Below, piece after piece: positions 12,955-31,012 of a DNA stretch of 64,000 bases; the stretch's first letter is position 1, and the number at the start of each line of letters is the position of its first letter. The stretch lies in assembly GCA_035571835.1 (NCBI GenBank), contig DATNBU010000045.1, positions 186,001-250,000 of the forward strand. Direction: 5' to 3'. Made by a program: the position numbers and the translations under genes. This DNA is from Candidatus Limnocylindrales bacterium (GTDB lineage: Bacteria > Desulfobacterota > Binatia > UBA1149 > CAITLU01). The notes under the pieces are model-generated. The model was given only the letters and a program-made list of their open reading frames with translations. It was not told the origin of the DNA and searched no databases.

Positions 12955-13009
12955 ACCCGGACGAATCGAACTTGAGAAGGGCACGGAGTCCCGGCTCGAG
13001 ACGCTTGAC

Positions 13010-14302: not shown

Positions 14303-14713
14303 TCACTCCGCTTTCTTCGGCACCAGCTTCATCGTGTACGGGTGATTGAAGTAGTGGATGAAGAGGTCGCTCGAATATTTCTGCGCCATCGCGGCAGCTA
14401 CGCGCTCGGCCATCTCCGGAGTGTTGACCATCTCGATGTTGTCGAACTGCTGGCCGGCGATCTTGATCGACGTCAGCGGTTTGGTCCTGCTGCAGTCGAC
14501 ACGGCCTGCTGCTCGCGATCCGAGGCGCACCCACGCATCGCCGTCGAGCACGACCACCCAGACGTACGACCAGTACTCGCCTTCGTCGGGACAGTCGGTG
14601 CGGAACTGCAGCGTCTCCTCGTCCGTCCATTTTTCCGGTGTCCATTCGGCAGCGTGCGCGAATGTCGCGGCAAACATGAGGAACGTAGCGGCAAACAGGC
14701 TGGCAAGTTTCAT
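14303..14713 (-). CDS. Small exported protein, unknown function
   Basis: A 136-residue protein with a clear Sec signal peptide (FAATFLMFAATFAHA, cleavage probably after residue 21 before AEWTPEKW). The mature part has one central hydrophobic strand (YWSYVWVVVL) and two Cys (in TDCPDE and VDCSRT) that could form a disulphide. GGAGG is 4 bases before the ATG. I do not recognise the family. It sits between nnrS (convergent) and nasA with no clear functional link. Confidence 0.7.
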   Translation of the reverse strand: MKLASLFAATFLMFAATFAHAAEWTPEKWTDEETLQFRTDCPDEGEYWSYVWVVVLDGDAWVRLGSRAAGRVDCSRTKPLTSIKIAGQQFDNIEMVNTPEMAERVAAAMAQKYSSDLFIHYFNHPYTMKLVPKKAE

Positions 14714-14837
14714 GGAACCTCCGTCGTGCGCGCGCGCAACGCTGGCGGACGACGGAAAACGTTTATGCGTCCTGCCGTGACGCGGCAAGAGGCGGCACGT
14801 GCAGCCAAGGGCGAGGCCGATCACTCGAAAGCAGGGA

Positions 14838-17522
14838 TCAGGCGGCGCGGCTTCGATTGGCGAGGATCACGCCGAGCAGCGTGCGGATCTCGGGGACGCA
14901 GGATCCGCAGTTGGTGCCGGCCCTGGTGCAACTGCCGACCTCTTCCGGCGTCTGCAGTCCGTGCCGGTCGATCGCTTCGTCGATCGCCGAGCGGCGCACG
15001 TTAAAGCACGAGCAGATGATCGGGCTGTTGTCGGTCGCTCCGGCAAGCGGCCTTCCGGCCAGTAACGCCATGCGATCGTTCTCGTCGAGCGCGGGTTTTG
15101 CGAGCAGGCCGGCAATCCAGTCGCGTGACGGCATTTGCGCACGACGCGACAGGAAAACGCACGCGGCAATCCGGTCATCGCGGACGATGGCCGCCCGATA
15201 GATTCCAGCGCCTTCGTCGGCGTACTCGAGAAGGTCCGCGCGGCCCGGCTGCACGTTGAGGAGCAGACGTCCGCGTGCGGCGAGATCCTGCTCCGGCCGC
15301 AGGCCCGCGAGCTCGAAGCGCACGAATCCGTCGCCGCAGACCCTGGTCCACAGCTCGGCATCCGGAACTTTCTGCGTGGTGCGTCCGAACAGCACGCCGT
15401 GCCAGGCCGGCACGACCCGTTCGATCGCTGCGGGCGTATGCTTGAGCTCGGGCTCGCCCGACGCGGGATCGACGGCCGGATTGACGAGCGCACCGACGCG
15501 GCCTGAAGCGCAATTCGCGTCGCTCCAGTGCATCGGTGCGAACAACATTCCGCGCGGCATCTCACCGCTGGTTCGCGAGCGCAGGACGGCCGCCCCCCAC
15601 GCGGTCGTCACCTTGACGAAGTCGCCGTCGTCGAGCCGGATTGTCGCGGCGTCATCGGGGTGGAGATCCACGTACGGCTCCGGCATGTGATCGGAAAGAC
15701 GCGGCGAGGTGCCGGTGCGCGTCATCGTGTGCCACTGGTCGCGGATGCGTCCGGTGTTCAGGACGAACGGGAAACGCATGCACGTCTCGTGCGACGGACG
15801 CCGCGGCGTCGTCGGAACCAGATGCGCGCAGCCGCTCGGATGAAAAAATGCTCCATGTTCGGCCAGTCGCGCCGTTCCGCGATGACCGCGCTCGGGTACA
15901 GGCCACTGGATCGGCTCGAGCGATTCGTACTCCTCCGCCGACAGTCCGGCCAGGCCGCCGATATCGAATGCACGCGCGCCGTCGTTGCCAGCGGACGACA
16001 GTCGCGCATGCTCGTCGAAGATCTCGTGGACCGATTCGAACGCGAACGCGTCGGCATAACCCATGCGCTCGGCAACCCTGCTCAGGATCCACCAGTCCGG
16101 CCTGGCTTCGCCGGGCGGATTCAGGAACGCGCGTTGTCGCGAGATGCGGCGCTCGGAGTTCGTCGTGGTACCGTCGCGCTCGCCCCACGCGGCAGCCGGT
16201 AGCAGCACGTCAGCAAGCACGGCCGTATCGGTGTCCGCCGCGCAGTCGGAAACCACGACGAAGTCGCAGCTCGCGATTGCATCGCGCACGCGATCGGCCG
16301 CCGGGAGGCTGACGGCAGGATTGGTCGCGACGATCCACAGCGCCTTGATGCGTCCCTCGCGCACCGCTTCGAACAGGTCGACCGCCTTGAGTCCCGGTCG
16401 CGACGCGATGCGAGGGCTCTTCCAGAACTCCTGCACGATGCGCCGGTGTCCCGGGTCGTCGAGCGACATGTGCGCCGCGAGCATGTTCGCCATGCCGCCG
16501 ACTTCACGGCCGCCCATCGCGTTCGGCTGTCCGGTCAACGAGAACGGACCCATGCCCGGTTTGCCGATGCGACCGGTCAGCAGATGGCAGTTGACGATGC
16601 TCGTGACTTTGTCGGATCCGGACGACGACTGGTTGACGCCTTGCGAGAACGCCGTCACGACGCGCGCGGTCGCGGCGAACATGCGGTAGAACTCTTCGAG
16701 GTCGGAGACCGCGAGACCGCAGGCGGCTGCGACGACGGCCGAGGATCTTGCGCTCTCTCGCGCCGCGGCAACCGCTTCGACTGCACCGATCGTGTGCTCT
16801 TCGAGGAAGTCGTAGTCGCGGCAGCCTTCGCGATCGAGCCAAGCCAGCAGCCCGTTGAACAATTCCACGTCGCTGCCGGCGCGGATCGCAAGATGCAGGT
16901 CGGCGATGCCGGCGGTTGGCGTCTGCCTCGGGTCGATGACGACGATGCGCATGTCGGGTCGCCGCTGGCGCGCGTCCTCGAGCCGGCGGAACAGCACGGG
17001 ATGGCACCACGCCAGGTTCGAACCGACGAGCACGACGAGATCGGCAAGATCGAAATCCTCGTAACAGCCCGGAACGATGTCTTCGCCGAACGCCCTCTGG
17101 TGGCCGACGACCGACGACGACATGCAAAGCCGCGAGTTCGTGTCGATGTTGGCCGAGCCGATGAATCCCTTCATCAGCTTGTTGAAGACGTAGTAGTCCT
17201 CGGTCAGGAGCTGCCCGGATACGTAGAAAGCGACCGAGTCCGGGCCGTGCTTTGCGATCGTATCGCGAAACCGGTGTGCGACGAGCTCGAGAGCTTCGTC
17301 CCAGCCGGTATCGCGCCCGTGGACTCGCGGACGAAGAAGACGTCCGCCATGGCCGAGCGTTTCGGCGAGAGCTGCGCCTTTCGAACACAGCAGCCCGCCG
17401 TTGGCCGGATGTGCGGCGTCGCCGGCGATCGTCGTATTGCCGTCAGCGGTGGTCGCGACGATCCCGCAGCCGACGCCGCAGTACGCGCACGTCGTGCGCA
17501 CCGGAGTCGGCTGCTCGCTCAT
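14838..17522 (-). CDS. nasA: Assimilatory nitrate reductase catalytic subunit
   Basis: Reduces nitrate to nitrite in the cytoplasm. The 894-residue molybdopterin oxidoreductase has an N-terminal [4Fe-4S] site (Cys12, Cys15, Cys19, Cys46), followed by SANIDTNSRLCMSSS with the likely Mo-ligand Cys, and GPFSLTGQPNAMGGREVGG. The C-terminal about 60 residues form a BFD-like [2Fe-2S] domain (CSCFNV ... CTRAGTNCGSC), typical of NasA proteins fed by NADH or ferredoxin partners. The ATG at 17522 overlaps the upstream gene's TGA. It is third in the operon nirB - fusion reductase - nasA, so transcription depends on the sigma-54 promoter and leader 4.3 kb upstream. A gene for the molybdenum cofactor is not in view. 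Confidence 0.95.
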   Translation of the reverse strand: MSEQPTPVRTTCAYCGVGCGIVATTADGNTTIAGDAAHPANGGLLCSKGAALAETLGHGGRLLRPRVHGRDTGWDEALELVAHRFRDTIAKHGPDSVAFYVSGQLLTEDYYVFNKLMKGFIGSANIDTNSRLCMSSSVVGHQRAFGEDIVPGCYEDFDLADLVVLVGSNLAWCHPVLFRRLEDARQRRPDMRIVVIDPRQTPTAGIADLHLAIRAGSDVELFNGLLAWLDREGCRDYDFLEEHTIGAVEAVAAARESARSSAVVAAACGLAVSDLEEFYRMFAATARVVTAFSQGVNQSSSGSDKVTSIVNCHLLTGRIGKPGMGPFSLTGQPNAMGGREVGGMANMLAAHMSLDDPGHRRIVQEFWKSPRIASRPGLKAVDLFEAVREGRIKALWIVATNPAVSLPAADRVRDAIASCDFVVVSDCAADTDTAVLADVLLPAAAWGERDGTTTNSERRISRQRAFLNPPGEARPDWWILSRVAERMGYADAFAFESVHEIFDEHARLSSAGNDGARAFDIGGLAGLSAEEYESLEPIQWPVPERGHRGTARLAEHGAFFHPSGCAHLVPTTPRRPSHETCMRFPFVLNTGRIRDQWHTMTRTGTSPRLSDHMPEPYVDLHPDDAATIRLDDGDFVKVTTAWGAAVLRSRTSGEMPRGMLFAPMHWSDANCASGRVGALVNPAVDPASGEPELKHTPAAIERVVPAWHGVLFGRTTQKVPDAELWTRVCGDGFVRFELAGLRPEQDLAARGRLLLNVQPGRADLLEYADEGAGIYRAAIVRDDRIAACVFLSRRAQMPSRDWIAGLLAKPALDENDRMALLAGRPLAGATDNSPIICSCFNVRRSAIDEAIDRHGLQTPEEVGSCTRAGTNCGSCVPEIRTLLGVILANRSRAA

Positions 17523-19129
17523 CGGGCTCCCGCGTTCGCCTGGGCCTCGCCGAACAGCAGCGCTTCGCGAATCGACGCCACGTCGCGGCCGTCGCGCATC
17601 ATCTCGCAGTACCACGCGCCGTCGCTGACGTCGCCGTAGAGCAGCGCTCCCTGCATGCGGTTGTCGCGAAGCACGAGCCGCTTGTAGATCCCGCGCGCCG
17701 GATCCTTGAGCACGATCGATTCGGCGCCGCTGCCGCCGCGCACGTCTCCCGCAGAGAAGACGCTGACGCCGGTGACCTTGAGCTGCGCCGGCGCAAGCGG
17801 CGAGCGGTAGCGCGAGACGCCGAGCTCGGCGAGATGCGTCGCGCACACGCGCGCCTGTTCCCACAGCGGAGCCACGAGGCCGAACGTCACGCGCCGATGC
17901 TGTACGCATTCGCCGATCGCGTAGACGCGCGGATCGAACGTCTGCATCGTGTCGTCGACCAGAATGCCGCGTCCGCATTGCAGCTCGGCCGCGGCGGCAA
18001 GAGCGATGTTCGGCCGGATTCCGAGCGCAGTCACGACGAGATCCGCGCGAAGCTCGCTGCCATCGTCCAGCATCACGCTTGCCGCGCGGCCTTCGCTGTT
18101 CGAGCCGAACCCGAGCGTCCGTGTGCCGGTCCGGCAGGCGATGCCGCGCTGCTCGAGCGATTCGCGCAGCAGCCGGCCGGCCTCCGGGTCGAGCTGGCGG
18201 TTCATCAGCGTGTCGGAGCGGTGCACGATCGTGACAGTCATGCCGCGCTGGAGAAGCCCCGAGGCCGCTTCGACTCCGAGCATTCCGCCGCCGATCACGA
18301 CCGCGTGACCGCCGCCGCCGGCCACGCGCAGCATCTCTTCGACGTCGTCTACCGTGCGGAAGCGGATCACTCCGGGCAGGTCACTGCCGGGTACGTCGAG
18401 CTCGACCGGAACCGAGCCCGTAGCGAGCACGAGCCGATCGTATTCGCAGCGCACGCCGCCGGCCGATTCGACGACGCGGCGTACGCGGTCGATGCGCGTA
18501 ACCGGATCGCCGGCGTGCAGTGTAATTCCCCGGCTCTGGTACCAGGCGCGGTCGTGTCCGGCGATGTCGTCGAACGTCTTGTCGCCGCCGAGCACGCTCG
18601 AGAGCAGCACGCGGTTGTATCCGCCGCGCGGCTCGGCGCCGAAGACGGTGATCTCGTAGCGATTGGGTGCGAGCGCGAGCAGCTCCTCGAGCGCGCGCAT
18701 TCCCGCCATGCCGTTGCCGACCAGAACGAGCCGCCGTTTCCTCAGCGGGATCGGCGCGCGCACGACCTTGCGCTCGACCATCACCCGCCCTTCGATGAGG
18801 CGCACCCGGTGTGTTGCGACCGCGACGTCCGGATTCTCGAGGCAGCGTCCCGTCGCGAGGTTGAAGTGCTGCTTGTACAGCGGCGATGCCACGACGAGCT
18901 CACCGCCGATGTCTCCGACGATGCCGCGCGACAGCACGTTGGCCCCGCCGATCGGATCGGCGTTGTCGATGGCGTAGACGCCGGACGTCGTGTGGAAGAT
19001 CGCGATCTGGCGGCCATCGACGAGGGCGCAGACGCCGGAATCCGGCAGGATGTCGTCGAGCGCGCAGACGTCGCGCCATGTGGTGGCCGCCGGTGCGGGC
19101 GTTGCCAGCTTTGCCGTCGCGGTTCTCAT
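17519..19129 (-). CDS. NirD-like Rieske domain fused to FAD/NAD(P) oxidoreductase
   Basis: A 536-residue two-domain protein. Residues about 15-115 resemble the nitrite reductase small subunit NirD: a Rieske-type fold (WRDVCALDDI ... GVYAIDN ... GELVVASPLYKQHFNLATG) lacking both Cys-x-His and Cys-x2-His iron ligands, as in true NirD. Residues about 125-536 form an FAD-dependent pyridine-nucleotide reductase, with VLVGNGMAGMRALEEL, VVIGGGMLGVEAASGL and YAIGECVQHR dinucleotide-binding motifs, like the N-terminal third of NirB. No sirohaem or BFD motif follows. It lies between nirB and nasA with ATGA overlaps on both sides. It may supply electrons from NAD(P)H to NasA and also act as NirD for NirB; which of these holds is inference. 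Confidence 0.88.
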   Translation of the reverse strand: MRTATAKLATPAPAATTWRDVCALDDILPDSGVCALVDGRQIAIFHTTSGVYAIDNADPIGGANVLSRGIVGDIGGELVVASPLYKQHFNLATGRCLENPDVAVATHRVRLIEGRVMVERKVVRAPIPLRKRRLVLVGNGMAGMRALEELLALAPNRYEITVFGAEPRGGYNRVLLSSVLGGDKTFDDIAGHDRAWYQSRGITLHAGDPVTRIDRVRRVVESAGGVRCEYDRLVLATGSVPVELDVPGSDLPGVIRFRTVDDVEEMLRVAGGGGHAVVIGGGMLGVEAASGLLQRGMTVTIVHRSDTLMNRQLDPEAGRLLRESLEQRGIACRTGTRTLGFGSNSEGRAASVMLDDGSELRADLVVTALGIRPNIALAAAAELQCGRGILVDDTMQTFDPRVYAIGECVQHRRVTFGLVAPLWEQARVCATHLAELGVSRYRSPLAPAQLKVTGVSVFSAGDVRGGSGAESIVLKDPARGIYKRLVLRDNRMQGALLYGDVSDGAWYCEMMRDGRDVASIREALLFGEAQANAGAR

Positions 19130-21708
19130 GAATTCCCCCCGATATGCTCGAGCCGCTCTTGTTGCGTGGCCGGCCGGATCTGACCGCGCTCCTCGACGAA
19201 CAGCACGTCGGGATCCTTGCGGTCGTCGTTGACGAAATGGCGGAAGCGGCGAAGCGTGGCCGGATCCTCGACGGCCTTCTTCCATTCGCACTCGTAGCTC
19301 GCGACGACCGAGGCCATGTCGGCCTCGAGCTCGCTCGCGATGCCGAGCGAGTCTTCGCAGACGACCGCCTTCAGGTAGTCGAGGCCGCCTTCGAGATGCT
19401 CGAGCCACGTGGCGGTGCGCTGCAGCCTTTCGGCCGTGCGCACGTAGAACATCAGGAAGCGGTCGATGAAGCGGACGAGCGTGGCCTCATCGAGGCCCGT
19501 CGCGAGCAGGTCGGCGTGACGCGGCTTCATGCCGCCGTTGCCGCCCACGTACAGGTTCCAGCCGTTCTCGGTTGCGATGACGCCAACGTCCTTGCTCTGC
19601 GCTTCCGCGCATTCGCGCGTGCAGCCGGACACGGCGAGCTTGATCTTGTGCGGCGCGCGCAGGCCCTTGTAACGATCCTCGAGCCGGATCGCGAGACCCA
19701 CGCTGTCCTGCACGCCGTAGCGGCACCACGTCGAGCCGACGCACGATTTGACCGTGCGCAGCGCCTTTCCGTATGCGTGGCCGGACTCGAAACCGGCAGC
19801 GATCAGCTCCTCCCAGATGAGCGGGAGCTGATGCAGATGCGCGCCGAGAAGATCGATGCGCTGTCCGCCGGTGATCTTCGTGTACAGCCTGTACTTGCGC
19901 GCGACCTCGCCGATCGCGATCAGCTTTTCCGGCGTGATCTCTCCGCCCGGAACGCGCGGCACCACCGAATACGTGCCGTCTTTCTGCATGTTGGCCAGGT
20001 AGCGGTCGTTGGTGTCCTGCAGCGGGGTGCGATCCGGCGACAGCACGAACTCGTTCCAGCACGACGCGAGGATCGACGCGACGGCGGGTTTGCAGATGTC
20101 GCAGCCGCGGCCGCGGCCGTGCTTCGCAATCAGCGTGTCGAAGTCGCGGATGTTGCCGCTGCGCACGAGATGGAAGACCTGCTGGCGCGAGAACGGGATG
20201 TGCTCGCAAAGCCTGCGATCGATCGCGACGCCGCGCCTGGCCATCTCGGCGTTGAGGATCTGCGTGACCAGCGACGTGCATCCGCCGCACGAGGTTCCGG
20301 CCTTGGTCGCCGATTTGACGGCGCCGAGGGTCGAGCAGCCGCCCGAGATCGCTGCGCAGATCGCGCCTTTGCTCACGTTGTTGCACGAGCAGATCTGCGC
20401 CGCGTCGGGCAGCTCGGCCTTCGATGCAGCAGGAGCGCCGTCGCGCGCCGGCACGATCAGCGCTTCCGGCCCGTCCGGGATCGCGCTTCCGCTCTGGACG
20501 AGGTGCAGCAGCGAGCCGTAATCGTCGGTATCGCCGACGAGGATCGCTCCGAGCAGGCGGCTGCCGTCTTCGCTGACGACGATCTTCTTGTACGAATCGC
20601 TTCTGCCGTCGACGAACGACCAGCAGCGCGCTCCGGGAGTCGCAGCGTGTGCGTCGCCGAGCGACGCGACTCCGACGCCGAGCAGCTTGAGCTTGGTGCT
20701 CATGTCGGCGCCCGCGAACTCCGCATCATCCTCGCCCGTTGCGCTTTGGTGGTTGCGGCGGCCGATGTCGGCGGCTGCCACGCGGGCCATCTCGTAGCCG
20801 GGTGCGACCAGGCCGAACGTCTTTCCTTGCCAGACGGCGCATTCGCCGATCGCATAGATCGCCGGATCGCTCGTCCGGCAGCGGCCGTCGATCGCGATTC
20901 CGCCGCGGGCGCCGACCTCGAGACCGCATGCGCGGGCGAGCTCGTCGCGAGGGCGAATGCCGGCCGACCAGACCACTACGTCGACGTCGAGCGCGCTCCC
21001 GCCGGCGAACTGCATCCGGTGCGGATGCGTGTCGCTGCCGGCAATTTCGAGGGTGTTCTTCCCGGTGTGGACCGTGACGCCGAGGCTCTCGATCTTGCGC
21101 CGCAGCAGGCTTCCGCCCGCGTCGTCGACCTGGACGGCCATCAGGCGCGGAGCGAATTCGACGACGTGGGTTTCGAGGCCGAGATCGTGAAGCGCCTTGG
21201 CCGCTTCGAGCCCGAGCAGGCCGCCACCGACTACCGCACCGCGTGCTGCGCGCTCATTCGCCGACGCCCTCGCAGCACATGCGGCATTGCGGATGGCCTC
21301 GAGGTCTTCGATCGTGCGGTAGACGAAGCAGCCTTCGCGGTCGCGGCCCGGCACCGGCGGAACGAACGGAGCCGAGCCGGTCGCGAGCACGAGCACGGCC
21401 CACGCGACTTCGCGGCCGGCGGCCGTGCGCACGACGCTCGCGTCGCGGTCGATCGAGACGACCCGGTCGTCGAGCTCGAGCGTGATCGCGTGCTTTTCGA
21501 AGAACCCCGGCTCGACCATCGAGAGGTCGCCCGCGGTCTTTCCGGAAAACAGCGACGTCAGCTGCACGCGATCGTATGCGGCGCGCGGCTCTTCGGTGAA
21601 GACGGAAATCGCGAGGCCGGGCGCTGCCGCGACGATGGTTTCGAGAAACCGCTGGCCCACCATGCCGTTGCCTACGACGACGAGTCCGGCAGTGCTTCGC
21701 GTTTCCAT
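19126..21708 (-). CDS. nirB: Assimilatory nitrite reductase large subunit
   Basis: Six-electron reduction of nitrite to ammonium with NAD(P)H, cytoplasmic. The protein has 860 residues. Residues 1-400 form an FAD/NAD(P) reductase (VVVGNGMVGQRFLE, YAIGECAVW). A BFD-like [2Fe-2S] domain near 430-490 (CSCNNV ... AGTSCGGC) is followed by the ferredoxin-like half-domain and the sirohaem/[4Fe-4S] domain with CVGSTWCRYG and GCTRECAEAQ. ATG at 21708 is chosen because the Rossmann start lies at once downstream and GAGGA precedes it by 8 bases; the longer frame upstream runs through the leader. It is first of the nirB - NirD/FAD fusion - nasA operon, controlled by the promoter and leader terminator at 21727-21876. 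Confidence 0.95.
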   Translation of the reverse strand: METRSTAGLVVVGNGMVGQRFLETIVAAAPGLAISVFTEEPRAAYDRVQLTSLFSGKTAGDLSMVEPGFFEKHAITLELDDRVVSIDRDASVVRTAAGREVAWAVLVLATGSAPFVPPVPGRDREGCFVYRTIEDLEAIRNAACAARASANERAARGAVVGGGLLGLEAAKALHDLGLETHVVEFAPRLMAVQVDDAGGSLLRRKIESLGVTVHTGKNTLEIAGSDTHPHRMQFAGGSALDVDVVVWSAGIRPRDELARACGLEVGARGGIAIDGRCRTSDPAIYAIGECAVWQGKTFGLVAPGYEMARVAAADIGRRNHQSATGEDDAEFAGADMSTKLKLLGVGVASLGDAHAATPGARCWSFVDGRSDSYKKIVVSEDGSRLLGAILVGDTDDYGSLLHLVQSGSAIPDGPEALIVPARDGAPAASKAELPDAAQICSCNNVSKGAICAAISGGCSTLGAVKSATKAGTSCGGCTSLVTQILNAEMARRGVAIDRRLCEHIPFSRQQVFHLVRSGNIRDFDTLIAKHGRGRGCDICKPAVASILASCWNEFVLSPDRTPLQDTNDRYLANMQKDGTYSVVPRVPGGEITPEKLIAIGEVARKYRLYTKITGGQRIDLLGAHLHQLPLIWEELIAAGFESGHAYGKALRTVKSCVGSTWCRYGVQDSVGLAIRLEDRYKGLRAPHKIKLAVSGCTRECAEAQSKDVGVIATENGWNLYVGGNGGMKPRHADLLATGLDEATLVRFIDRFLMFYVRTAERLQRTATWLEHLEGGLDYLKAVVCEDSLGIASELEADMASVVASYECEWKKAVEDPATLRRFRHFVNDDRKDPDVLFVEERGQIRPATQQERLEHIGGNS

Positions 21709-21726
21709 CCAATGATTCCTCGACCC

Positions 21727-21786
21727 AAAAAAAACGCTGCCGACAAGGCGGACCATCCTTTCGGATGGATCCGGTTGTCGGCAGCG
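21727..21786 (-). terminator. Intrinsic terminator inside the nirB leader (attenuator)
   Basis: On the minus strand a perfect 12-bp stem (bases 21775-21786 with 21735-21746) encloses a second helix CCATCC-GAAA-GGATGG capped by a GNRA-type loop, and is followed at once by eight T (21734-21727). It lies between the predicted transcript start (about 21850) and the nirB ATG (21708), so it would stop transcription unless overridden. This is the expected target of an ANTAR antiterminator such as the NasT encoded next door. Confidence 0.9.
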
Positions 21787-21795
21787 CTGCCCTTC

Positions 21796-21846
21796 GGACC
21801 CCACACTAGGCCCGTTCCATTCGTGCCGGCGGAGATGAACCGGCAC
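21796..21846 (-). promoter_or_regulatory. Two leader hairpins upstream of the nirB terminator
   Basis: Hairpin one pairs GTGCCGG (21846-21840) with CCGGCAC (21829-21823) around a 10-nt loop. Hairpin two (21813-21796) pairs GGGCCT with GGGTCC, with two G-U pairs, leaving hexaloop AGUGUG, which begins with A and has G at position 4 as in known ANTAR-bound hairpins. Tandem hairpins before an intrinsic terminator match the NasT/NasR leader design; the first loop is larger than the usual six. Confidence 0.55.
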
Positions 21847-21860
21847 TCGGCGGCTGTAAC

Positions 21861-21876
21861 TGCAACGCACGTGCCA
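21861..21876 (-). promoter_or_regulatory. Sigma-54 promoter of nirB operon
   Basis: Minus-strand TGGCACG-N4-TTGCA is an exact match to the sigma-54 -24/-12 consensus with correct spacing (GG at -24, GC at -12). The predicted start is about 21850, giving a leader of about 142 nt that contains two hairpins and a terminator before nirB. Such promoters need an enhancer-binding activator, probably NtrC here. Confidence 0.9.
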
Positions 21877-21961
21877 CGACTGCCGCGTCAGGCAGCTCGC
21901 AAAAACACCGTTGGAAACGCTCGAATTGCGAAATCCGCGGCTTGGGGAAGACGAGACGAGA

Positions 21962-22007
21962 TGCACAAGCGTCGAGCATCGCGTCGCATCTGCACGCAAT
22001 TCGGGCA
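21962..22007. promoter_or_regulatory. Paired NtrC-like sites shared by nirB and nasT
   Basis: Two dyads of the NtrC type lie 29 bp apart: TGCAC-N7-GAGCA at 21962-21978 and TGCAC-N7-GGGCA at 21991-22007. Each is one base off TGCAC-N7-GTGCA. The near edge is 112 bp upstream of the predicted nirB start, and the pair is also 150-195 bp upstream of the nasT start, so it could serve as a shared enhancer. Confidence 0.6.
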
Positions 22008-22131
22008 TCGCCCGGGCTCTTCAGACCCGTCCGTCAGCCATCACGCCGGTATCGGTCCCGGGTGCGAACCGCGTGCGAATTGTCGCTCGCGATGCCTCGC
22101 GGCGCCCATCGATAGGCCGGCGCACGGCCGA

Positions 22132-22147
22132 TGGCATGGACGTTGCT
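22132..22147 (+). promoter_or_regulatory. Sigma-54-type promoter of nasTS
   Basis: Plus-strand TGGCATG-N4-TTGCT differs from the sigma-54 consensus at one base and keeps the invariant GG and GC at the right spacing. The predicted start is about 22158, 46 nt before the nasT ATG, with no leader terminator in between. It faces away from the nirB promoter across the shared NtrC-like sites. Confidence 0.65.
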
Positions 22148-22203
22148 CAGCACCCGGCGAGGCCTGTTTTGTATTTCCGCTGCACAGATCCGCACGAGAC
22201 CGG

Positions 22204-22791
22204 ATGACCGAGCCGTCGCTGCGCATTCTCGTCGTGGATCCCGACAGCATCCGGGCATCCATCGTCGAGGACGGTCTGCGCGAGGCGGGCTACGAGAACG
22301 TCACGATCATCCGTGAGATGGACAACCTCCTGCGACGCATCGTCGACGTCGATCCGGAGGTCATCTTCATCGATCTCGAAAACCCCAACCGCGACGTGCT
22401 CGAACAGATGTTCCAGGTCTCGCGCTGCGTCCACCGCCCGATCGCGATGTTCGTCGACGAATCCGACAGCGGCATGATCGAGGCCGCCGTCGACGCCGGC
22501 GTCGGTGCGTACGTCGTCGACGGGCTGCGCAAGGAAAGGATCCGCTCGATTCTCGACACGGCGGTCAGCCGCTTCAATGCATTCAGCAAGCTTCGTGACG
22601 AGCTCGACCGCACGCGCCAGGCGCTCGAGGAACGCAAGCTCGTCGAGCGCGCCAAGGGAATCCTCATGAAAGCACGCGGCGTCGACGAGGCCGGCGCCTA
22701 CGAGCTCATGCGCAAGGCCGCGATGAACGAAAACCGCCGGATTCCGGACGTGGCCCAGAGCGTCGTTACCGCGTCGAGGCTGCTGCGATGA
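22204..22791 (+). CDS. nasT: ANTAR-domain antiterminator, NasT-like
   Basis: A 195-residue RNA-binding regulator. Residues 1-120 form a CheY-like receiver with early acidic residues (VVDPDS), FIDLENPNRD at the acceptor Asp region, and a degenerate C-terminal part. A short coiled linker (LRDELDRTRQALEERK) leads to an ANTAR domain (about 138-192), with ERAKGILMKARG and the AYELMRKAAMNENRRI segment. ANTAR proteins bind tandem hairpins and stop terminator formation; two such leaders occur in this locus. Its stop overlaps the nasS start (ATGA), so sensor and antiterminator are made together. In the known NasS/NasT pair NasS holds NasT inactive until nitrate binds. Confidence 0.93.
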   Translation: MTEPSLRILVVDPDSIRASIVEDGLREAGYENVTIIREMDNLLRRIVDVDPEVIFIDLENPNRDVLEQMFQVSRCVHRPIAMFVDESDSGMIEAAVDAGVGAYVVDGLRKERIRSILDTAVSRFNAFSKLRDELDRTRQALEERKLVERAKGILMKARGVDEAGAYELMRKAAMNENRRIPDVAQSVVTASRLLR

Positions 22792-24056
22792 GCGATCTCA
22801 TGCCGGTGACGGTCGGCTTCATCCCGCTCGTCGACTGCGCGTTCCTCGCGGTCGCGCGCGAGAAAGGATTCGCTGCGGCCGAGGGAATCGACCTGACGCT
22901 GGTGCGGGAATCGTCGTGGGCGAGCATCCGCGACCGCCTGATCGTCGGCCATTTCGACGCCGCGCACCTGCTCGGTCCGATGACGGTGGCCTCCACGCTC
23001 GGGATTCGCCACGTCGCAGTTCCAATGATCGCGCCGTTCGCGCTCGGCCTCGGCGGCAACGCGGTCACGTTCTCGACGGCGCTGCGCGATGCGGTGTACA
23101 GAGAAGGCGCGCCGTCGGGCCTGCCGCCTCGCACGTCCGATGGATGGCGCCGCCGCGCGCTCGACGTCGGCGAGGCGCTGCGGCGCGTAGTCCGCCAGCG
23201 CGGCGCGCTCGGGCTCGAACCGCTCACGTTCGCCGTGGTTTTTCCGTTCTCGTGCCACAACTACACGCTTCGCTACTGGCTCGCCGCGGTCGGAATCGAC
23301 CCCGATCGCGATGTCCGCATCGTCGTCATTCCGCCGCCGCTGCTCGCCGACTCGATGCGCGCCGGTTATGTGGACGGCTTCTGCGCCGGTGAGCCGTGGA
23401 ACAGCGCCGCGGTGGCCGGCGGAGTCGGCAGCATCGAGTTTCCGACCACGGCGATCTGGCGTCAGTGCCCGGACAAGGTTCTCGGCTGCCGTTTCGACTG
23501 GGCAGAGCGTCGCACCGACGACCTCTTCGCGTTGATGCGAAGCCTCTACCGCGCTGCGGTCTGGTGCGACGAAGCCGGCAACCACGCCGAGCTGGCGCGC
23601 ATCCTCGCCGAACCGAGCTATGTCGGCGCCGCGCCGGAGATGATCGAGCCGGCACTTTCCGGCGTCTTCACGCTTTCGGAGGCCATGCCCGTCGCCAAAG
23701 TCGACGACTTCCATATCTCGCTGCGCAACGCTGCGACGTTTCCGTGGACCAGTCATGCGCTCTGGTTTTATTCGCAGATGGTGCGCTGGGGACAGACGGT
23801 GTGGTCGGAAGCGGGCCTCGCACGCTCGGTCAGGACGTACCGTCCCGATCTGTACCGTCGTGCGCTCGCATCGGTTGATGTCGACATCCCTGCAACCGAC
23901 TCGAAGATCGAAGGCGCAAGCAACTCGGAGATCGAGCTTCCTTCCTCCAGGGGCAGGCTTCGAATCGCTCCATGTGGTTTCCTCGACGATCGCATCTTCG
24001 ATCCATCGGACGTTCGCGCATACGTCGATGGCTTCGAAGGCGACGAGCCGATCTGA
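22788..24056 (+). CDS. nasS: Cytoplasmic nitrate sensor, NasS-like (NrtA-related)
   Basis: A 422-residue protein of the NrtA/CmpA nitrate-bicarbonate binding fold (VTVGFIPLVDCAFLAVAREKGF at the N-terminus, FDAAHLLGPM, PFSCHNYTLRYWL, VDGFCAGEPWN). It has no signal peptide or lipobox, so it should stay in the cytoplasm. That is the mark of NasS rather than of a transport binding protein. NasS binds NasT and lets it go when nitrate or nitrite binds. It is translationally coupled to nasT upstream and followed by a 338-bp regulatory gap before the ABC permease gene. The C-terminal about 40 residues are poorly conserved and hydrophilic. Confidence 0.92.
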   Translation: MSDLMPVTVGFIPLVDCAFLAVAREKGFAAAEGIDLTLVRESSWASIRDRLIVGHFDAAHLLGPMTVASTLGIRHVAVPMIAPFALGLGGNAVTFSTALRDAVYREGAPSGLPPRTSDGWRRRALDVGEALRRVVRQRGALGLEPLTFAVVFPFSCHNYTLRYWLAAVGIDPDRDVRIVVIPPPLLADSMRAGYVDGFCAGEPWNSAAVAGGVGSIEFPTTAIWRQCPDKVLGCRFDWAERRTDDLFALMRSLYRAAVWCDEAGNHAELARILAEPSYVGAAPEMIEPALSGVFTLSEAMPVAKVDDFHISLRNAATFPWTSHALWFYSQMVRWGQTVWSEAGLARSVRTYRPDLYRRALASVDVDIPATDSKIEGASNSEIELPSSRGRLRIAPCGFLDDRIFDPSDVRAYVDGFEGDEPI

Positions 24057-24070
24057 TTCGTCGCTCGCGC

Positions 24071-24119
24071 TGCACGGATTTCATGCAATGCCACGACTCG
24101 GGTGCACGGCGCGTGTGCA
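24071..24119. promoter_or_regulatory. Paired NtrC-type sites upstream of nitrate permease gene
   Basis: TGCAC-N7-ATGCA at 24071-24087 (one mismatch) and a perfect TGCAC-N7-GTGCA at 24103-24119 are spaced exactly 32 bp, the spacing of the strong NtrC sites at enteric glnA. The near edge is 112 bp upstream of the predicted sigma-54 start, the same distance as for the nirB pair. Confidence 0.75.
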
Positions 24120-24204
24120 CGCGCGGAAGTCAGCGTTGCCGCGTCGCGGCGTAAGTGTGCGCCACTCCTCATTCCACACACTTGCTGCACACCTTCCGAT
24201 TCGA

Positions 24205-24220
24205 TGGCACATGGGTTGCA
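24205..24220 (+). promoter_or_regulatory. Sigma-54 promoter of nitrate transporter operon
   Basis: TGGCACA-N4-TTGCA matches the sigma-54 -24/-12 consensus at all core bases with correct spacing. The predicted start is about 24231, giving a leader of about 164 nt that contains hairpins and a terminator before the permease gene. Confidence 0.88.
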
Positions 24221-24240
24221 CTGTGCCGGCCAGGCCGACC

Positions 24241-24301
24241 GCGGACTGCGCGTGCTGCGCAAACCGCATGGACGGCCACGCGATCCCAACAGCGGGATCG
24301 C
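24241..24301 (+). promoter_or_regulatory. Two leader hairpins upstream of the permease-gene terminator
   Basis: Hairpin one (24241-24267) has outer arms GCGG/CCGC, a 2x2 internal loop, inner arms TGCGC/GCGCA and a 5-nt loop. Hairpin two (24280-24301) has a perfect 8-bp stem GCGATCCC/GGGATCGC closed by hexaloop AACAGC. The order, two hairpins then a terminator, matches the nirB leader and the known NasT/NasR leader design, although the loop lacks G at position 4. Confidence 0.55.
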
Positions 24302-24309
24302 ACGGCAGC

Positions 24310-24373
24310 GACGCCGACTCTCGCGCGCGACATCCTGGTTGTCGCCGCACGCGAAGGTCGGCGTCTTTTTTTT
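24310..24373 (+). terminator. Intrinsic terminator in the nitrate transporter leader (attenuator)
   Basis: A 9-bp outer stem GACGCCGAC/GTCGGCGTC (24310-24318 with 24357-24365) encloses CGACA/TGTCG and is followed by eight T (24366-24373). It lies 21 bases before the permease start codon and after the sigma-54 start site, so it should block expression unless NasT prevents its formation. Confidence 0.88.
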
Positions 24374-24394
24374 GGTGCACAGCCGGAGGCGAAT

Positions 24395-25531
24395 GTGAGC
24401 GGACAGGTCGATATGAAGATTCTGATGCCGGTCGTGACCCACCATGAGGACGAGGAGGACGCCGAGATAGTGCCTGCTCCGCCCGCGCCTTTGCCGAGCG
24501 GCAGGCTTTCGCGTGCTCTGTCGATCGATTCGCTGCTTCGAGGCCTGACGATGGCAGGGCTCGGATTCGTCGTGCCGATGGTAAAGCTGCTGCGCGGCGA
24601 GGATCCGCGCGAACAGCTTCGCGAGCTCTGGCAGCTGGTCGGCGTGCCGCTGGTCGCCATCGGCGTTTTCCTGCTGCTGTGGAGCCGCTTGTCGGCTGGA
24701 GTCCAGACCAGCCTCGGGCAGATTCCCGGACCGGCTGCGGTTGCGCACCAGGCAGTCGTGTTGTGGGACGCGCACAAGGCCGGAAGAGCCGAAGCGGCCG
24801 CATTCTACGAGCACCAGGCGGTTCGCAATGCGGAAAAACTTGCCGCGGACCCCAAAGCCGAGGTCGTGGTCCGCAAGTACACCGGCCGGCCGACGTTCAT
24901 CGACCAGATCTTTACCAGCCTGAAGACCGTGTTCGTCGGCTTCCTGCTGGCATCGATCGTCGCGATTCCGCTTGGCGTCGTCTGCGGGCTCAGCCCGACG
25001 ATGAACGCCGCGTTCAACCCGCTGATCCAGCTGTTCAAGCCTGTCTCGCCGCTGGCGTGGCTGCCGATCGTCACGATGGTGGTCAGCGCCGTCTATGTGA
25101 GCGACAACCCGGCCTTCGAGAAATCATTCCTGAATTCGGCGATCACCGTGACGCTGTGCTCATTGTGGCCCACGGTGATCAACACGTCGCTCGGCGTCGC
25201 ATCGATCGACCGCGACCTCATCAACGTGGCGCGCACGCTGCAGCTCGACTGGCGCACGCGGCTGTTCAAGCTCGTGCTGCCGTCGTCGCTGCCGCTGATC
25301 TTCACCGGCCTTCGCCTCTCGCTCGGCGTCGGCTGGATGGTCCTCATCGCCGCCGAGATGCTCGCGCAGAATCCGGGGCTCGGGAAGTTCGTCTGGGACG
25401 AATTCCAGAACGGCAGCTCGGATTCTCTGGCGCGCATCATGGTTGCCGTGCTGGCGATCGGCAGCATCGGCTTTCTGCTCGACCGCGTGATGATGACGAT
25501 CCAGGGCCTGTTCAGCTACGAGAGGCGCTGA
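24395..25531 (+). CDS. nrtB: Nitrate/nitrite ABC transporter permease
   Basis: A 378-residue inner-membrane permease of the NrtB/TauC type. After a hydrophilic N-terminal about 45 residues there is an isolated hydrophobic segment, then a long periplasmic-type insert (about 105-165), then the binding-protein-dependent permease core with the EAA-type loop (INVARTLQLDWRTRLFKLVLPSSLP, about 280-304) that docks on the ATPase. The TAFIDQIF/ISPLAWLPI-like segment is as in NrtB. The GTG at 24395 is chosen because GGAGG lies 5 bases upstream, just after the leader terminator; ATG 24413 is an alternative. It imports nitrate for NasA. Confidence 0.9.
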   Translation: MSGQVDMKILMPVVTHHEDEEDAEIVPAPPAPLPSGRLSRALSIDSLLRGLTMAGLGFVVPMVKLLRGEDPREQLRELWQLVGVPLVAIGVFLLLWSRLSAGVQTSLGQIPGPAAVAHQAVVLWDAHKAGRAEAAAFYEHQAVRNAEKLAADPKAEVVVRKYTGRPTFIDQIFTSLKTVFVGFLLASIVAIPLGVVCGLSPTMNAAFNPLIQLFKPVSPLAWLPIVTMVVSAVYVSDNPAFEKSFLNSAITVTLCSLWPTVINTSLGVASIDRDLINVARTLQLDWRTRLFKLVLPSSLPLIFTGLRLSLGVGWMVLIAAEMLAQNPGLGKFVWDEFQNGSSDSLARIMVAVLAIGSIGFLLDRVMMTIQGLFSYERR

Positions 25532-25534
25532 GCG

Positions 25535-27292
25535 ATGGCACTGCTCGAGCTCGACGGCATCGCAAAGACCTACGTGCGCGGTTCGGTAACGACCGAGGTC
25601 CTCGCGGACATCCACCTTTCGATCGAAGACGGGGAGTTCCTGGCGATCGTCGGATTCTCCGGCAGCGGCAAGACCACGCTGATTTCGATGCTGGCCGGGC
25701 TGCTCGCGCCCGACGCGGGCGAAATCCGGCTGCGGGGAAGCAAGATCACCGGTGCAGGCCCGGATCGAGGCGTCGTCTTCCAGAGCTACTCGCTGTTTCC
25801 GTGGCTCACGGTGACCGGCAACGTTGCGCTCGCGGTCGATGCATGTTCGCCGGATCTTTCGCGCGGCGAGCGCGCGGCCGAGGTTCGCAAGTACGTCGAG
25901 CTGGTCGGGCTCGCGCACGCGTGCGACCGCCATCCGGCCGAGCTTTCGGGCGGCATGCGGCAACGTGTCGCGCTCGCCCGCGCGCTCGCCACGAGGCCGC
26001 AGATCCTGCTGCTCGACGAGCCGCTGTCGGCGCTCGACGCGCTGACGCGTGCCAACATGCAGGACGAGCTCGAACACATCCGCCGGCACCAGAAGCGCAC
26101 GATTGTGCTCGTGACCAACGACGTCGACGAAGCGCTGCTGCTCGCGGACCGCATCGTCCCGCTGACGCCGGGGCCGGGTGCGACGCTCGGGCCGGAATTT
26201 CGCGTCGACATTGCGCGCCCGCGCGATCGCCGCGCCGTCAACCACGATCCGGCTTATCGAAAGCTTCGCGGCGAGATCACCGAATACCTGCTCGACCTCG
26301 CCGCTTCGCGCGCGGTGCCGCTGGACGATCAGCGCGAGGCTCCGACCGCCGTCCCGAAAAACCTGAGCAAGGTGAAGAGGCCCGCGCGGATGGTAACGAC
26401 GAAGGATCTCTCGCCGCCGCGGCTTCCGTCGGAAGATGCCGGCGAACCTCTGCCGGCGGTGCTTCGCAATCTCGGCCGCAGCCACGTCCACGACAGCCGG
26501 CGGTTCGTCGAGTTCTCGCAGGTCACCAAGACCTATCCGACCAGGGACGGTCTGCTCACGGTCGTCGACCGGATCGATCTCGATGTCGCCAAAGGCGAGT
26601 TCATTTCGCTGATCGGACATTCGGGCTGCGGAAAGTCGACGCTGCTGTCGATGGCCGCCGGCCTTACCGACGTGACCGGCGGCGGAATCATCCTCGACGG
26701 CCGCGAGGTCGAGGCTGCCGGTCCGGATCGCGGAGTCGTCTTCCAGGCGCCGAACCTTCTTCCGTGGCTGACGTCGCGCGAGAACGTCGCGATCGGAGTA
26801 GATCGCGTCTATCCGCACGTTGCCGCTGCCGAGCGCCGCGACATCACCGAATATTATCTGTCGCGGGTAGGGCTGGCCGACGCGATGGATCGCAAGCCCG
26901 GCGAGCTTTCGAACGGAATGAAACAGCGTGTCGGTCTTGCGCGCGCGTTCGCATTATCTCCGAAGCTGCTGCTGCTCGACGAGCCGTTCGGCATGCTCGA
27001 TGCGCTCACGCGCTGGGAGCTCCAGGAGCTGCTGATGGAGATCTGGACGCGCACGCGCGTGACGGCGATCTGCGTGACGCACGACATCGACGAGGCGATC
27101 CTGCTTGCCGACCGCGTGGTGATGATGACGAACGGTCCGCGTGCACAGATCGGAAAGATCATGGCCGTCGATCTTCCGAGGCCGCGAAGCCGCAAGACCG
27201 TCCTCGACCATCCCCGCTACTACGAGTATCGAGAAGAGCTCCTCACCTTCCTCGAGGAGTGTGTGCACAGCAGCGCTGCAGACGCGGCGTAA
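25535..27292 (+). CDS. Nitrate ABC transporter ATPase, two nucleotide-binding domains in one chain
   Basis: 585 residues carrying two complete ABC ATPase domains. Domain one has Walker [10 protein letters not shown] (40-48), LSGGMRQR (about 136), ILLLDEP and a switch segment VTND in which Asn replaces the usual His. Domain two has Walker [10 protein letters not shown] (about 361), signature LSNGMKQR (about 458), LLLDEP and the normal VTHD. A charged linker of about 80 residues joins them. It combines what cyanobacteria encode as NrtC and NrtD, but without the NrtA-like C-terminal domain of NrtC. It starts 3 bases after the permease stop. Asn at the first switch position suggests that one ATP site is weak. 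Confidence 0.92.
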
Positions 27293-27342
27293 TCAGGTTA
27301 CGAAACCAGGGACACCCGAAGGCCGTTTACGGAGGACACGTC

Positions 27343-28887
27343 ATGTCTGAAAAAAGGGGAATGAGCCGCGCGTTTGCGGCGCTTGCGATCGCACTGCCGC
27401 TTTCTGCAGGGATTGCCGCTGCCGCCGGGGAAACCCCGGCGGCGGCCGACGCACCGCACTCGGCGCTGTCGAAACTGAAGATTTCCGGTGCGTGGAGATT
27501 TCGTAACGAAGTCTGGGATTTCTTCGAGCCGTCGGGTGTTGCTGGGGCGAACAACACGTACGACTTCGTCGGCAGCGACCTGCGGCTTGCCGCGACCTGG
27601 ACCGACGACTGGTTCGATGCGCTCGTCGAAGGGCAGGGCGTGTTCCTCGGGAATCTTCCCGATCATGCGACCGGCGGCCCCACGGAAGGACCGCTCGGAC
27701 TCGGCGCGCTCTACCGCGCGAACAACGGCGACAACGAAAACGAAGGCGACGTGTATCTTCGCCAGGGTGCGCTCAAGCTGAAGAAGCTCGGCGTTCCGGG
27801 CCTGTGGGTCCGGGGCGGGCGCCTGTCGCTGTCCGAAGGCAAGGAGGCGATCTCTGCAGAGCCCACGCTCGCATGGCTTGCGAACATGCGCATCGCGGAG
27901 CGACTGATCGGCCCGTTCGATTTCACGTATGCCGGGCGCTCGTTCGATTCCGCGCAGGTCTCGTGGACGCACGATGCGTACAATGTGACCGCGTTCGGCG
28001 GCAAGCCGACGCAGGGTGGAGTGGCCATCGACGGAATGGACGAGATCGACGATATCGCCGTCGGCTATGCGTCGGTCAACCTTACGAGCCCGTCGTACGC
28101 GAAGAACACGGCGGCGCGCCTGTTCTACATCTACTACGAGGACGACCGGCCGGTCGACAACAAGCCGCTCGTGATGCTCGACAACCGGCCGCTTGCGATC
28201 CGGCAAGCCGACGTGAGCAACATCAGTATTCATACGATCGGCGGAGACGTGCTCCAGGTGGTGCCGACTCCGATCGGTCCCGTCGATCTGCTCGGATGGT
28301 TTGCCTACCAGGGCGGCGACTGGGGTTCGCTCGATCACAGCGCGTGGGCGTTCGCATTCGAGGCGGGTCTCCAGCCGTCGAAGCTCCCGTGGAAACCGTG
28401 GCTGCGCGCCGGCTTCGACATGGGCTCCGGCGACAACAACAACACCGACGGCGATCACGAAACGTTCTTCCAGATCCTGCCGACCGCGCGCGTCTATTCG
28501 TGGTCGACGTTCTACAACCTGATGAACAGCGAGGACGCTTTCGTGCAGGTCATCCTGCGGCCGAAAGCCGGCCTCGTGTGGCGAACCGATCTTCACGTCG
28601 TGAGGCTCAGCGACGATGACGATCTGTGGTACTTCGGCGGCGGCGCGGCACGCGAGCACAAGCAGCCGGGATTCGGTTTCGGCGGGCGCCCGTCGGACGG
28701 AAAGGACTCGCTGATGGAAGTTCTCGAGACGCAGGTCTCGTACAACTGGAACGATTACGTGGCGACGACGTTCTACTACGGCCACATGTTCGGCGAAGAC
28801 GTCGTCGAGTCCGACTTCAGCGGGAAGTCGGCGAACTACGCGTTCATGGAGTTCACGCTGAAGCTGCCGCCGATGGGTCCGAACTAG
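27343..28887 (+). CDS. Alginate-export-family outer-membrane porin
   Basis: A 514-residue exported beta-barrel protein. The signal peptide is about 28 residues (SRAFAALAIALPLSAGIAAAA). The rest is rich in alternating aromatic strands with acidic loops (GDNENEGDVYLRQ, DDRPVDNKPL, NNNTDGDHETFF), as in the alginate_exp family of specific porins. It ends near FTLKLPPMGPN, without the usual C-terminal Phe. GGAGG precedes the ATG by 7 bases. The gene lies 50 bp after the transporter ATPase on the same strand with no terminator between, so it is probably the outer-membrane gate for nitrate in this operon; that role is inference. Confidence 0.85.
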   Translation: MSEKRGMSRAFAALAIALPLSAGIAAAAGETPAAADAPHSALSKLKISGAWRFRNEVWDFFEPSGVAGANNTYDFVGSDLRLAATWTDDWFDALVEGQGVFLGNLPDHATGGPTEGPLGLGALYRANNGDNENEGDVYLRQGALKLKKLGVPGLWVRGGRLSLSEGKEAISAEPTLAWLANMRIAERLIGPFDFTYAGRSFDSAQVSWTHDAYNVTAFGGKPTQGGVAIDGMDEIDDIAVGYASVNLTSPSYAKNTAARLFYIYYEDDRPVDNKPLVMLDNRPLAIRQADVSNISIHTIGGDVLQVVPTPIGPVDLLGWFAYQGGDWGSLDHSAWAFAFEAGLQPSKLPWKPWLRAGFDMGSGDNNNTDGDHETFFQILPTARVYSWSTFYNLMNSEDAFVQVILRPKAGLVWRTDLHVVRLSDDDDLWYFGGGAAREHKQPGFGFGGRPSDGKDSLMEVLETQVSYNWNDYVATTFYYGHMFGEDVVESDFSGKSANYAFMEFTLKLPPMGPN

Positions 28888-28970
28888 CCGCCGGCGCCGC
28901 AACGCGCGGAAGCGCTTGCGGCTTCCTCCGAAGCGAATAGTTTTTCCACGCTTCGCACGGAGGGATACTC

Positions 28971-29705
28971 ATGGGACGGATACAGAGATGGAACGTAGTT
29001 GCGCTGGCGGCCGGTGTCTTGCTGACCGCTTCGACTTCCGCCATGGCAGCGGCGGCGTGCGGTGACGTCAATGCCAACGGCACCGTGACGTCGTCCGATG
29101 CACTGGCGGTGCTCAAGGAGGCCGTCGGCCAGCCGGTGAATCTGCAGTGCGGGGCTCCGGCGCAGCCGCTCAAAACCGGCGACACGATCAATCGCGGGTC
29201 GCGTTCCGACGGGTTTCTGGAGACCGGCGTCGCCCGATCGTTCCTCGACAACGGCGACGGCACGATCACCGACGACGCGACCGGGCTGACATGGGAGAAG
29301 AAGGACAACGCCGGCGGCATTCACGACCGCGACAACGAATACACGTGGTCGACCGGAAATGGCGAGATCAACGGCACGATCGTGTCGGACTTTCTCGCCG
29401 GCCTGAATGCATCCGGCGGATTCGCAGGACACACGGACTGGCGCATTCCGAATCGTTTCGAGCTCGAAACGCTGCTCAACGCCGGCGAAGAGGTACCGTC
29501 GACGTGGCCGGTGTTCGCAACCACCTGCAACGGCGGCTGCACGATTCATACCTGCAGCTGCACGCTGTCGGGATACTACTGGACGTCGACGACGTTCCAG
29601 AGCGACACGAGCGGCGCGTGGGCCATCCGTTTCAACGACGGCGGAGTGAACGCGATCCTGAAGACCACGACGCTTCACGCGCGCGCGGTGCGCGGCGGGC
29701 TGTGA
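28971..29705 (+). CDS. Exported DUF1566 (Lcl-like) protein with dockerin-like calcium loop
   Basis: A 244-residue exported protein. Signal peptide residues 1-27 (ALAAGVLLTASTSAMA) are followed by a dockerin-type EF-loop CGDVNANGTVTSSDALAVL (about 29-48) with paired Cys. A DUF1566/Lcl domain fills residues 75-244, with the hallmark DNGDGTITDDATGLTWEK start, GHTDWRIPNRFELETL and the YWTSTTF ... RAVRGG end. Such proteins are common on the surface of environmental Proteobacteria and candidate phyla; binding of glycans or host factors is suggested for relatives. GGAGGG sits 6 bases before the ATG. Function here is unknown. Confidence 0.82.
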   Translation: MGRIQRWNVVALAAGVLLTASTSAMAAAACGDVNANGTVTSSDALAVLKEAVGQPVNLQCGAPAQPLKTGDTINRGSRSDGFLETGVARSFLDNGDGTITDDATGLTWEKKDNAGGIHDRDNEYTWSTGNGEINGTIVSDFLAGLNASGGFAGHTDWRIPNRFELETLLNAGEEVPSTWPVFATTCNGGCTIHTCSCTLSGYYWTSTTFQSDTSGAWAIRFNDGGVNAILKTTTLHARAVRGGL

Positions 29706-29720
29706 CGCGACATCGCGGGA

Positions 29721-31000: not shown

Positions 31001-31012
31001 TATCGAGTCGCC

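Follow-up and report, generated by a model that had tools for sequence, protein, structure and literature searches.

Sigma-54 promoters and predicted NasT-type attenuators before the nitrite reductase and nitrate-transporter genes of a probably acquired nas module

What decides whether the nitrite reductase operon of this bacterium is transcribed is the question raised by the DNA upstream of nirB in the 64-kb window (by which we mean the whole stretch analysed here). The original prediction had placed there an exact sigma-54 promoter on the minus strand, a leader of about 142 nt with two hairpins, one of them closed by the hexaloop AGUGUG, and a 12-bp stem with a GNRA-capped inner helix and eight T just before nirB. 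Each of these elements was recovered. The promoter is read directly as TGGCACGTGCGTTGCA at 21876–21861; the predicted leader covers 142 nt (21850–21709, minus strand) from a start placed about 12 nt after the -12 GC of TGGCACGTGCGTTGCA, and includes the hairpins H0 and P1; the terminator (21786–21735) is GAAA-capped and is followed by T8 at 21734–21727. This account of the hairpins stands for the promoter, H0, P1 and the terminator, but it had overlooked a further hairpin, P2, which excludes the terminator.

19126–21708, minus strand: nirB, nitrite reductase large subunit (TIGR02374 1083 bits, NF011565 1259 bits, above cut-off)
21861–21876, minus strand: sigma-54 promoter of nirB, TGGCACGTGCGTTGCA, exact consensus
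21823–21846, minus strand: accessory hairpin H0 (GUGCCGG/CCGGCAC), predicted by folding
21795–21814, minus strand: hairpin P1, CGGGCCU[AGUGUG]GGGUCCG, 7-bp stem and hexaloop with A1 and G4, predicted by folding; 36.9 bits with covariance model R1 (in its training set)
21780–21791, minus strand: hairpin P2, GGC[AGCGCU]GCC, hexaloop with A1 and G4, candidate antiterminator having bases in common with the 5' arm of the terminator
21727–21786, minus strand: intrinsic terminator, predicted fold with a 12-bp outer stem, GAAA-capped inner helix and T8

The terminator begins inside P2, so that P2 cannot form alongside the complete terminator; 11 bp are possible between P2 and the arm before T8. The terminator itself (21786–21735) has a predicted energy of -39.1 kcal/mol, and the leader up to and including T8 reaches -70.7 kcal/mol against a shuffle mean of -45.9 (z = -6.2; 0 of 200 shuffles as good). 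When the window was scanned for a P1 and a P2 that both carry A1/G4 hexaloops, with P2 lying over a terminator arm and a T-run behind it, the nirB leader was the one site returned; of 30 windows simulated with a first-order Markov model, one held any such site. The hexaloop form of P2 has only 3 bp (-2.8 kcal/mol, set against the -39.1 kcal/mol of the terminator), and without protein the folding program favours a 4-bp tetraloop in this region, so NasT would have to do the work. When the nascent leader is folded step by step, the early structures are P1 and a small hairpin around P2; the complete terminator wins out only after its 3' arm has been made, an order that fits a default-stop attenuator with a time window for NasT action. 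Sites matching TGGCACN5TTGCA with at most one mismatch number two in the window, both exact (21861–21876 minus and 24205–24220 plus), and shuffled sequence also yields them (mean 0.73 over 100 shuffles; at least two matches in 9 of 100), so that the sigma-54 motif alone is weak evidence. The nirB promoter has the -24/-12 consensus at the correct spacing in a genome with rpoN, which lies on the same contig as the window, and the strict consensus TGGYAYN5TTGCW has three sites in the window, one each before nirB, nasT and the transporter unit, all of them nas units.

The neighbouring genes and control sites are listed below.

17519–19408, minus strand: nirD fused to an NAD(P)H/FAD reductase (TIGR02378 above cut-off, Pyr_redox_2)
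14838–17978, minus strand: nasA-like molybdopterin reductase with a C-terminal BFD [2Fe-2S] domain, below NCBIfam equivalog cut-offs
21962–22007, plus strand: two NtrC-like dyads upstream of the nirB promoter, one mismatch each (21962, 21991) to a presumed consensus
22132–22147, plus strand: sigma-54 promoter of nasT, TGGCATGGACGTTGCT, matching TGGYAYN5TTGCW
22204–22791, plus strand: nasT, 195 aa, receiver-like and ANTAR domains (PF03861 2.4e-20)
22788–24056, plus strand: nasS-like gene, 422 aa, overlapping the nasT stop (PF13379 5.6e-72)
24071–24119, plus strand: NtrC-like dyads (TGCAC-N7-GTGCA) preceding the transporter promoter, an exact one at 24103 and one with a single mismatch at 24071
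24395–25531, plus strand: ABC permease (PF00528)
25535–27292, plus strand: double-ATPase ABC protein (PF00005, two stretches)

The nirD fusion joins a NirD Rieske domain to a rubredoxin-reductase-like NAD(P)H/FAD domain (17519–19408, minus strand), and its true start probably lies inside this ORF. The permease, judging by its context, probably belongs to a nitrate transporter, and its start is probably the GTG at 24395 behind GGAGG rather than 24155. Dyads of the form TGCAC-N7-GTGCA, which we take to be the NtrC site consensus, occur nine times in the window at up to one mismatch; four of these are in the two nas intergenic regions, and one of those four is exact. The genome contains several NtrC-type matches, the best of which (525 bits) is below the TIGR01818 cut-off of 558.6. 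The NasS assignment is based on the NMT1-like family, on position and on the lack of an obvious signal peptide by eye. The divergent nasT gene, 0.5 kb from the nirB leader, is the sole ANTAR match in the genome, and its receiver domain is slightly below the Pfam cut-off (28.8 against 30.2 bits); sigma-54-like sites also lie directly before nasT in three related loci (L045, L048 and L066). Mapped by alignment with an inferred numbering offset of two, NasT retains nine of the 11 residues that the accessible part of PMC8934654 names as RNA contacts in EutV (R142, K143, K149, E160, Y164, R168, M172, N173 and R177) and departs from them at two (K147R and R175N).

A second leader of the same design, absent from the original prediction, lies at 24205–24373 on the plus strand, before the nitrate-transporter genes.

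24205–24220, plus strand: sigma-54 promoter of the transporter unit, TGGCACATGGGTTGCA, exact consensus
24280–24301, plus strand: predicted twin P1, stem arms GCGAUCCC and GGGAUCGC around the loop AACAGC, A1 kept and G4 not
24303–24316, plus strand: twin P2, CGGC[AGCGAC]GCCG, with A1 and G4; 34.2 bits with R1, outside its training set
24310–24373, plus strand: twin terminator and T8 (-37.2 kcal/mol)

In this twin leader P2 can pair over 9 bp with the arm that precedes the T-run, and the fold again stands out from shuffles (z -5.68). R1, a covariance model built from 15 leaders (alignment A2) and run over the window with filters off, gave 36.9 bits for the nirB leader, which is in training, and 34.2 bits at 24277–24319 plus, which is not, the next-best match scoring 13.6 bits. 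The dual-hexaloop scan passes over the twin leader because it demands A1/G4 in both loops. Under the stricter filters of an R1 search across the phylum the twin leader went undetected, so that search cannot show that these two leaders are the only targets in the genome. Set against the ANTAR dual-hexaloop design, the nirB leader combines an intrinsic terminator with two hairpins, each bearing A1 and G4 in a six-base loop (in the twin leader this holds for P2 only); P2 and the terminator exclude each other through common bases, and the adjoining NasT provides a cognate ANTAR protein. As with nas/nir leaders of NasS–NasT systems, genes of nitrate/nitrite assimilation follow it, and nasT and a nasS-like gene are present. 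The nirB leader is, on this analysis, a well-formed NasT-type attenuator under sigma-54 control, to which NasT would bind with nitrate as the signal. The original reading as a sigma-54-driven, NasT-type attenuator thereby gains support at the level of sequence from the overlap of P2 with the terminator, from the adjoining nasT and nasS-like genes and from the twin leader.

Comparable leaders occur elsewhere. Relatives were gathered with the NirB N-terminus as query, 80 of 285 being kept, and within 400 bases upstream of the match 18 of the 80 have a sigma-54-like site and 15 a T6 run. Inspection of 19 of the 80, together with motif scans, showed that many loci carry a matching leader upstream of nirB or of a nas gene nearby, which adds further sequence support to the predicted NasT-type attenuator. 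Clade A comprises the window, L026, L045, L048, L066, L002, L025, L017 and L028, plus L035, which has a leader and was placed in the clade with no NasT match in its locus; by record title the nine loci besides the window are gammaproteobacterial MAGs, and the NasT proteins of eight of them are 60–76% identical to that of the window. Set B is made up of canonical leaders from other NirB-relative loci and from the class of L002's genome, where NasT is found at E <= 1e-25 in 74 of 369 genomes, the identities listed being at most 50% apart from L002's own genome. A sigma-54 site lies upstream of 15/15 clade A leaders and 17/27 of set B, and P2 pairs over at least 6 bp with the arm before the T-run in 15/15 and 27/27, counts made with a loose T-run test and without a shuffle control, many of the clade A leaders having been found through their sigma-54 site. 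Changes on both sides of a stem are seen at five of nine pairs (13 of 500 shuffles have as many) and in 16 cells (0 of 500 as many); the number of stem pair types is not above shuffles (449 of 500 as high), and slid structures score worse than the proposed stems on every measure.

These comparisons bear on two other explanations of the nirB leader. The strong terminator with its T8 could serve to produce a stable NalA-like sRNA from the sigma-54 promoter, or to end another transcript, with no regulated attenuator, and the Pseudomonas leader is itself named as an RNA, NalA, in what is accessible of PMC12830290. We consider this improbable given the pairing of P2 with the arm before the T-run in every leader of both groups, the adjoining nasT and a twin leader with the same parts; a terminated leader RNA would in any case be compatible with an attenuator. 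Alternatively, the leader could be under control other than that of NasT, either riboswitch-like or by another RNA-binding protein, as might be suggested by the extra hairpin H0, for which there is no room in seven clade A leaders with a promoter-to-match distance of 24–30 bases, and by the P1 loop bases, which vary in close relatives. Yet the P2 loop carries A1 and G4, the only ANTAR match of the genome adjoins, matching leaders are present in other nasT-bearing genomes, and no Rfam family is found at gathering; we therefore think such control very improbable. The Rfam search, which the original prediction had proposed with an ANTAR-target model, did not further its case: it gave 0 matches at gathering over the 64-kb window with the families of Rfam 15, which may lack such a model, and the sole match around the nirB leader at E <= 10 is an unrelated mycobacterial sRNA on the plus strand (E = 1.2).

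The promoter matches, predicted hairpins, common bases, neighbouring genes and matching leaders elsewhere can be combined with NtrC use, release of NasT from NasS by nitrate, NasT binding and readthrough, as inferred from described systems, into a two-gate control element for nitrate assimilation, in which a sigma-54 start would be followed by nitrate-gated terminators that NasT relieves. We put the probability of this reading at a little under nine in ten. At the first gate, sigma-54 RNA polymerase would start nirB, the transporter unit and nasTS, probably with an NtrC-type protein as activator under ammonium scarcity. At the second, the nirB and transporter leaders would fold into strong intrinsic terminators, the default being to stop. 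Nitrate or nitrite would free NasT from NasS, and the freed NasT would bind the hexaloop hairpins and keep P2 folded, withholding the 5' arm from the terminator; the polymerase would then carry on through nirB-nirD-nasA and the transporter genes. No attenuator was found before nasT despite its sigma-54 promoter (22132–22147), so the sensor could be made before nitrate arrives.

The remaining question is how such an element came to this host, which the original prediction had regarded as an extension of NasT control to a distant lineage. In an RpoB tree of 25 rows from 27 loci (partial L183 and L184 left out) the host falls among members of its order and class (99/98), separate from the seven sequences of beta/gamma type (100/100), its RpoB being 96% identical to that of a genus-mate and 59% to the best gamma sequence. 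The window's NasT, by comparison, is 76% identical to that of a gamma MAG and 69% to that of L002, and this greater likeness of NasT than of RpoB to gamma sequences fits horizontal transfer. Additionally, where the window has positions 14654–33286 (18.6 kb, with the cluster inside), a same-genus genome (G004, contig C81) has about 0.56 kb, and synteny holds on either side. Since the host RpoB stands apart from the beta/gamma sequences and this stretch is replaced in G004, the nas module was probably acquired, and from the sequence comparisons its source looks gammaproteobacterium-like. The claim of a distant lineage is thus borne out as regards the host RpoB among the beta/gamma sequences sampled, but what it appears to show is transfer and not ancestral spread.

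GC content shows no difference (0.659 vs 0.658 and 0.650), no tRNA was found in the window as a mobile-element mark, and there is no convincing repeat at the island ends, the longest being 10 bases. Loss in G004 instead of gain is less likely, the other family members having been searched without close NirB or ANTAR matches: ANTAR genes are present in 3/13 genomes of the order and 0/6 other family members, and the NirB relatives in six family members are distant, at 39% identity at best. Contamination of the bin was rejected, as the contig is collinear with the same-genus genome on both sides of the island. Across the phylum, 125 of 297 genomes have ANTAR genes; judged by identity, most of those whose loci were retrieved are not NasT-like. 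Dual-hexaloop motifs with a terminator nearby were noted at four ANTAR loci elsewhere in the phylum, L121 (G208, same class), L135 (G031), L144 (G205) and L145 (G276), and R1 has weak matches in G205 (E 0.0019) and G276 (E 0.006). The island also encodes an Lcl_C-domain protein (28971–29705, plus) and a cyclase-like protein (30947–32107, plus), and an NnrS-like protein is encoded just outside it (12926–14263, plus). A dsrA gene scores above cut-off in 57 of the 118 phylum genomes examined, the window's own genome not being among those 57, and from this we take the phylum to be probably Desulfobacterota-like; no 16S match was obtained in the window's genome. One record titled Rhodospirillales (L061) has an RpoB that groups with Sinimarinibacterium, a gammaproteobacterium, and is possibly a mislabelled MAG judging from this placement; record titles are accordingly not fully reliable.

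An acquired leader might have become a relic, unresponsive in a new host without the right partners, which would agree with the absence of the stretch from the same-genus genome and with the lack of an NtrC match above the curated cut-off. We give this hardly any weight, as the parts look intact and nasT, the nasS-like gene, rpoN and several NtrC-type matches are all present. Taken together, the two-gate reading and the acquisition suggest the transfer, in one piece, of an entire cassette for control by ammonium and nitrate, along with its RNA switches, to a bacterium beyond the groups in which such switches have been studied.

The leader loops differ between the two groups of relatives, although P1 persists as a hairpin in the close relatives. 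P2 carries A1 and G4 in 15/15 clade A leaders and 27/27 of set B, a constancy that is partly built in because A1/G4 was a search criterion for many of the leaders; P1 carries both in 1/15 clade A leaders (the window's nirB leader) vs 27/27 of set B, counts that are not independent events because the leaders are related. The comparison used R1 on 48 loci chosen for earlier scan matches, with the L002 plus-strand leader added by hand; for alignment A3 (58 rows), one clade A row (a weak off-leader match) and 16 set B rows (nine with an unalignable P1, mostly with long linkers, and seven weak or off-leader) were dropped after the loops had been seen. By eye, one more clade A leader, outside these counts, precedes the L048 divergent unit, with AACAGA in P1 and AAAGCC in P2. 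In the ANTAR region (positions 131–195), three positions (139, 172 and 189) pass the filter used to tell clade A and the other proteins apart; residue 172 is Ala in 9/9 clade A proteins vs Leu or Met in 30/42 others, a difference that may be unrelated to the loop. One tentative reading, which we regard as doubtful, is that a single NasT-system lineage, the island included, uses a relaxed leader with its recognition bases in the P2 hexaloop alone, the cassette having apparently crossed a phylum boundary. In the available text on EutV, loop bases matter in each hairpin (PMC3369931) and the structure contains contacts to a single hexaloop (PMC8934654); the further statement of PMC8934654 that the dimer must touch each hexaloop to prevent termination speaks against this reading, though that paper leaves the role of single-hexaloop motifs to further work. 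A literature search, with subscription papers mostly outside its reach, turned up nothing that clearly dealt with this lineage or with P1-relaxed NasT leaders. If true, the relaxed-leader reading would be a case of natural single-hexaloop antitermination in a complete two-gate cassette (nasTS, two leaders, reductases and transporter). With the related leaders one could ask whether recognition by ANTAR proteins depends on bases in both hairpins or in the terminator-competing one alone.

Judged by arrangement, the nirB leader comes closest, among described systems, to NalA, the leader under NasT control before nirBD in Pseudomonas, which the accessible part of PMC12830290 presents as a sigma-54-driven leader with a terminator and NasT antitermination, NasS sensing nitrate/nitrite. 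The present locus is like it in its sigma-54-driven leader, its terminator before nirB(D) and its NasT and NasS-like pair, which would act in the same way; as far as that description goes, it is unlike it in having nasTS divergent and adjoining, a nirD-reductase fusion, a second leader before transporter genes and a host whose RpoB groups apart from the beta/gamma sequences sampled. With the eut leaders bound by EutV, as described in the portions of PMC3369931 and PMC8934654 available, it shares two small hairpins, A1/G4 hexaloops and a P2 embedded in the terminator stem, but the P2 stem of the nirB leader is 3 bp, and P1 is without A1 or G4 in the twin leader and most close relatives. In Paracoccus denitrificans, for which the sources were likewise accessible in part, NasT shifts the nasA leader RNA (PMC3795266) and a leader hairpin mutant has been compared with a nasT mutant on nitrate (PMC5424462); the NasS–NasT pair and the leader hairpins before nas structural genes are alike, whereas nasTS there is directly upstream of nasA and gene content differs. 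The nasF leader of Klebsiella, on the available accounts (PMC3369931, PMC5424462), is under nitrate-responsive ANTAR antitermination, as is predicted here, but through NasR, a one-component NIT-ANTAR sensor, in place of NasS–NasT. To this known picture the analysis adds P2, the twin leader, a third promoter, evidence that the module was acquired as a unit and, for the clade, a relaxed P1 loop.
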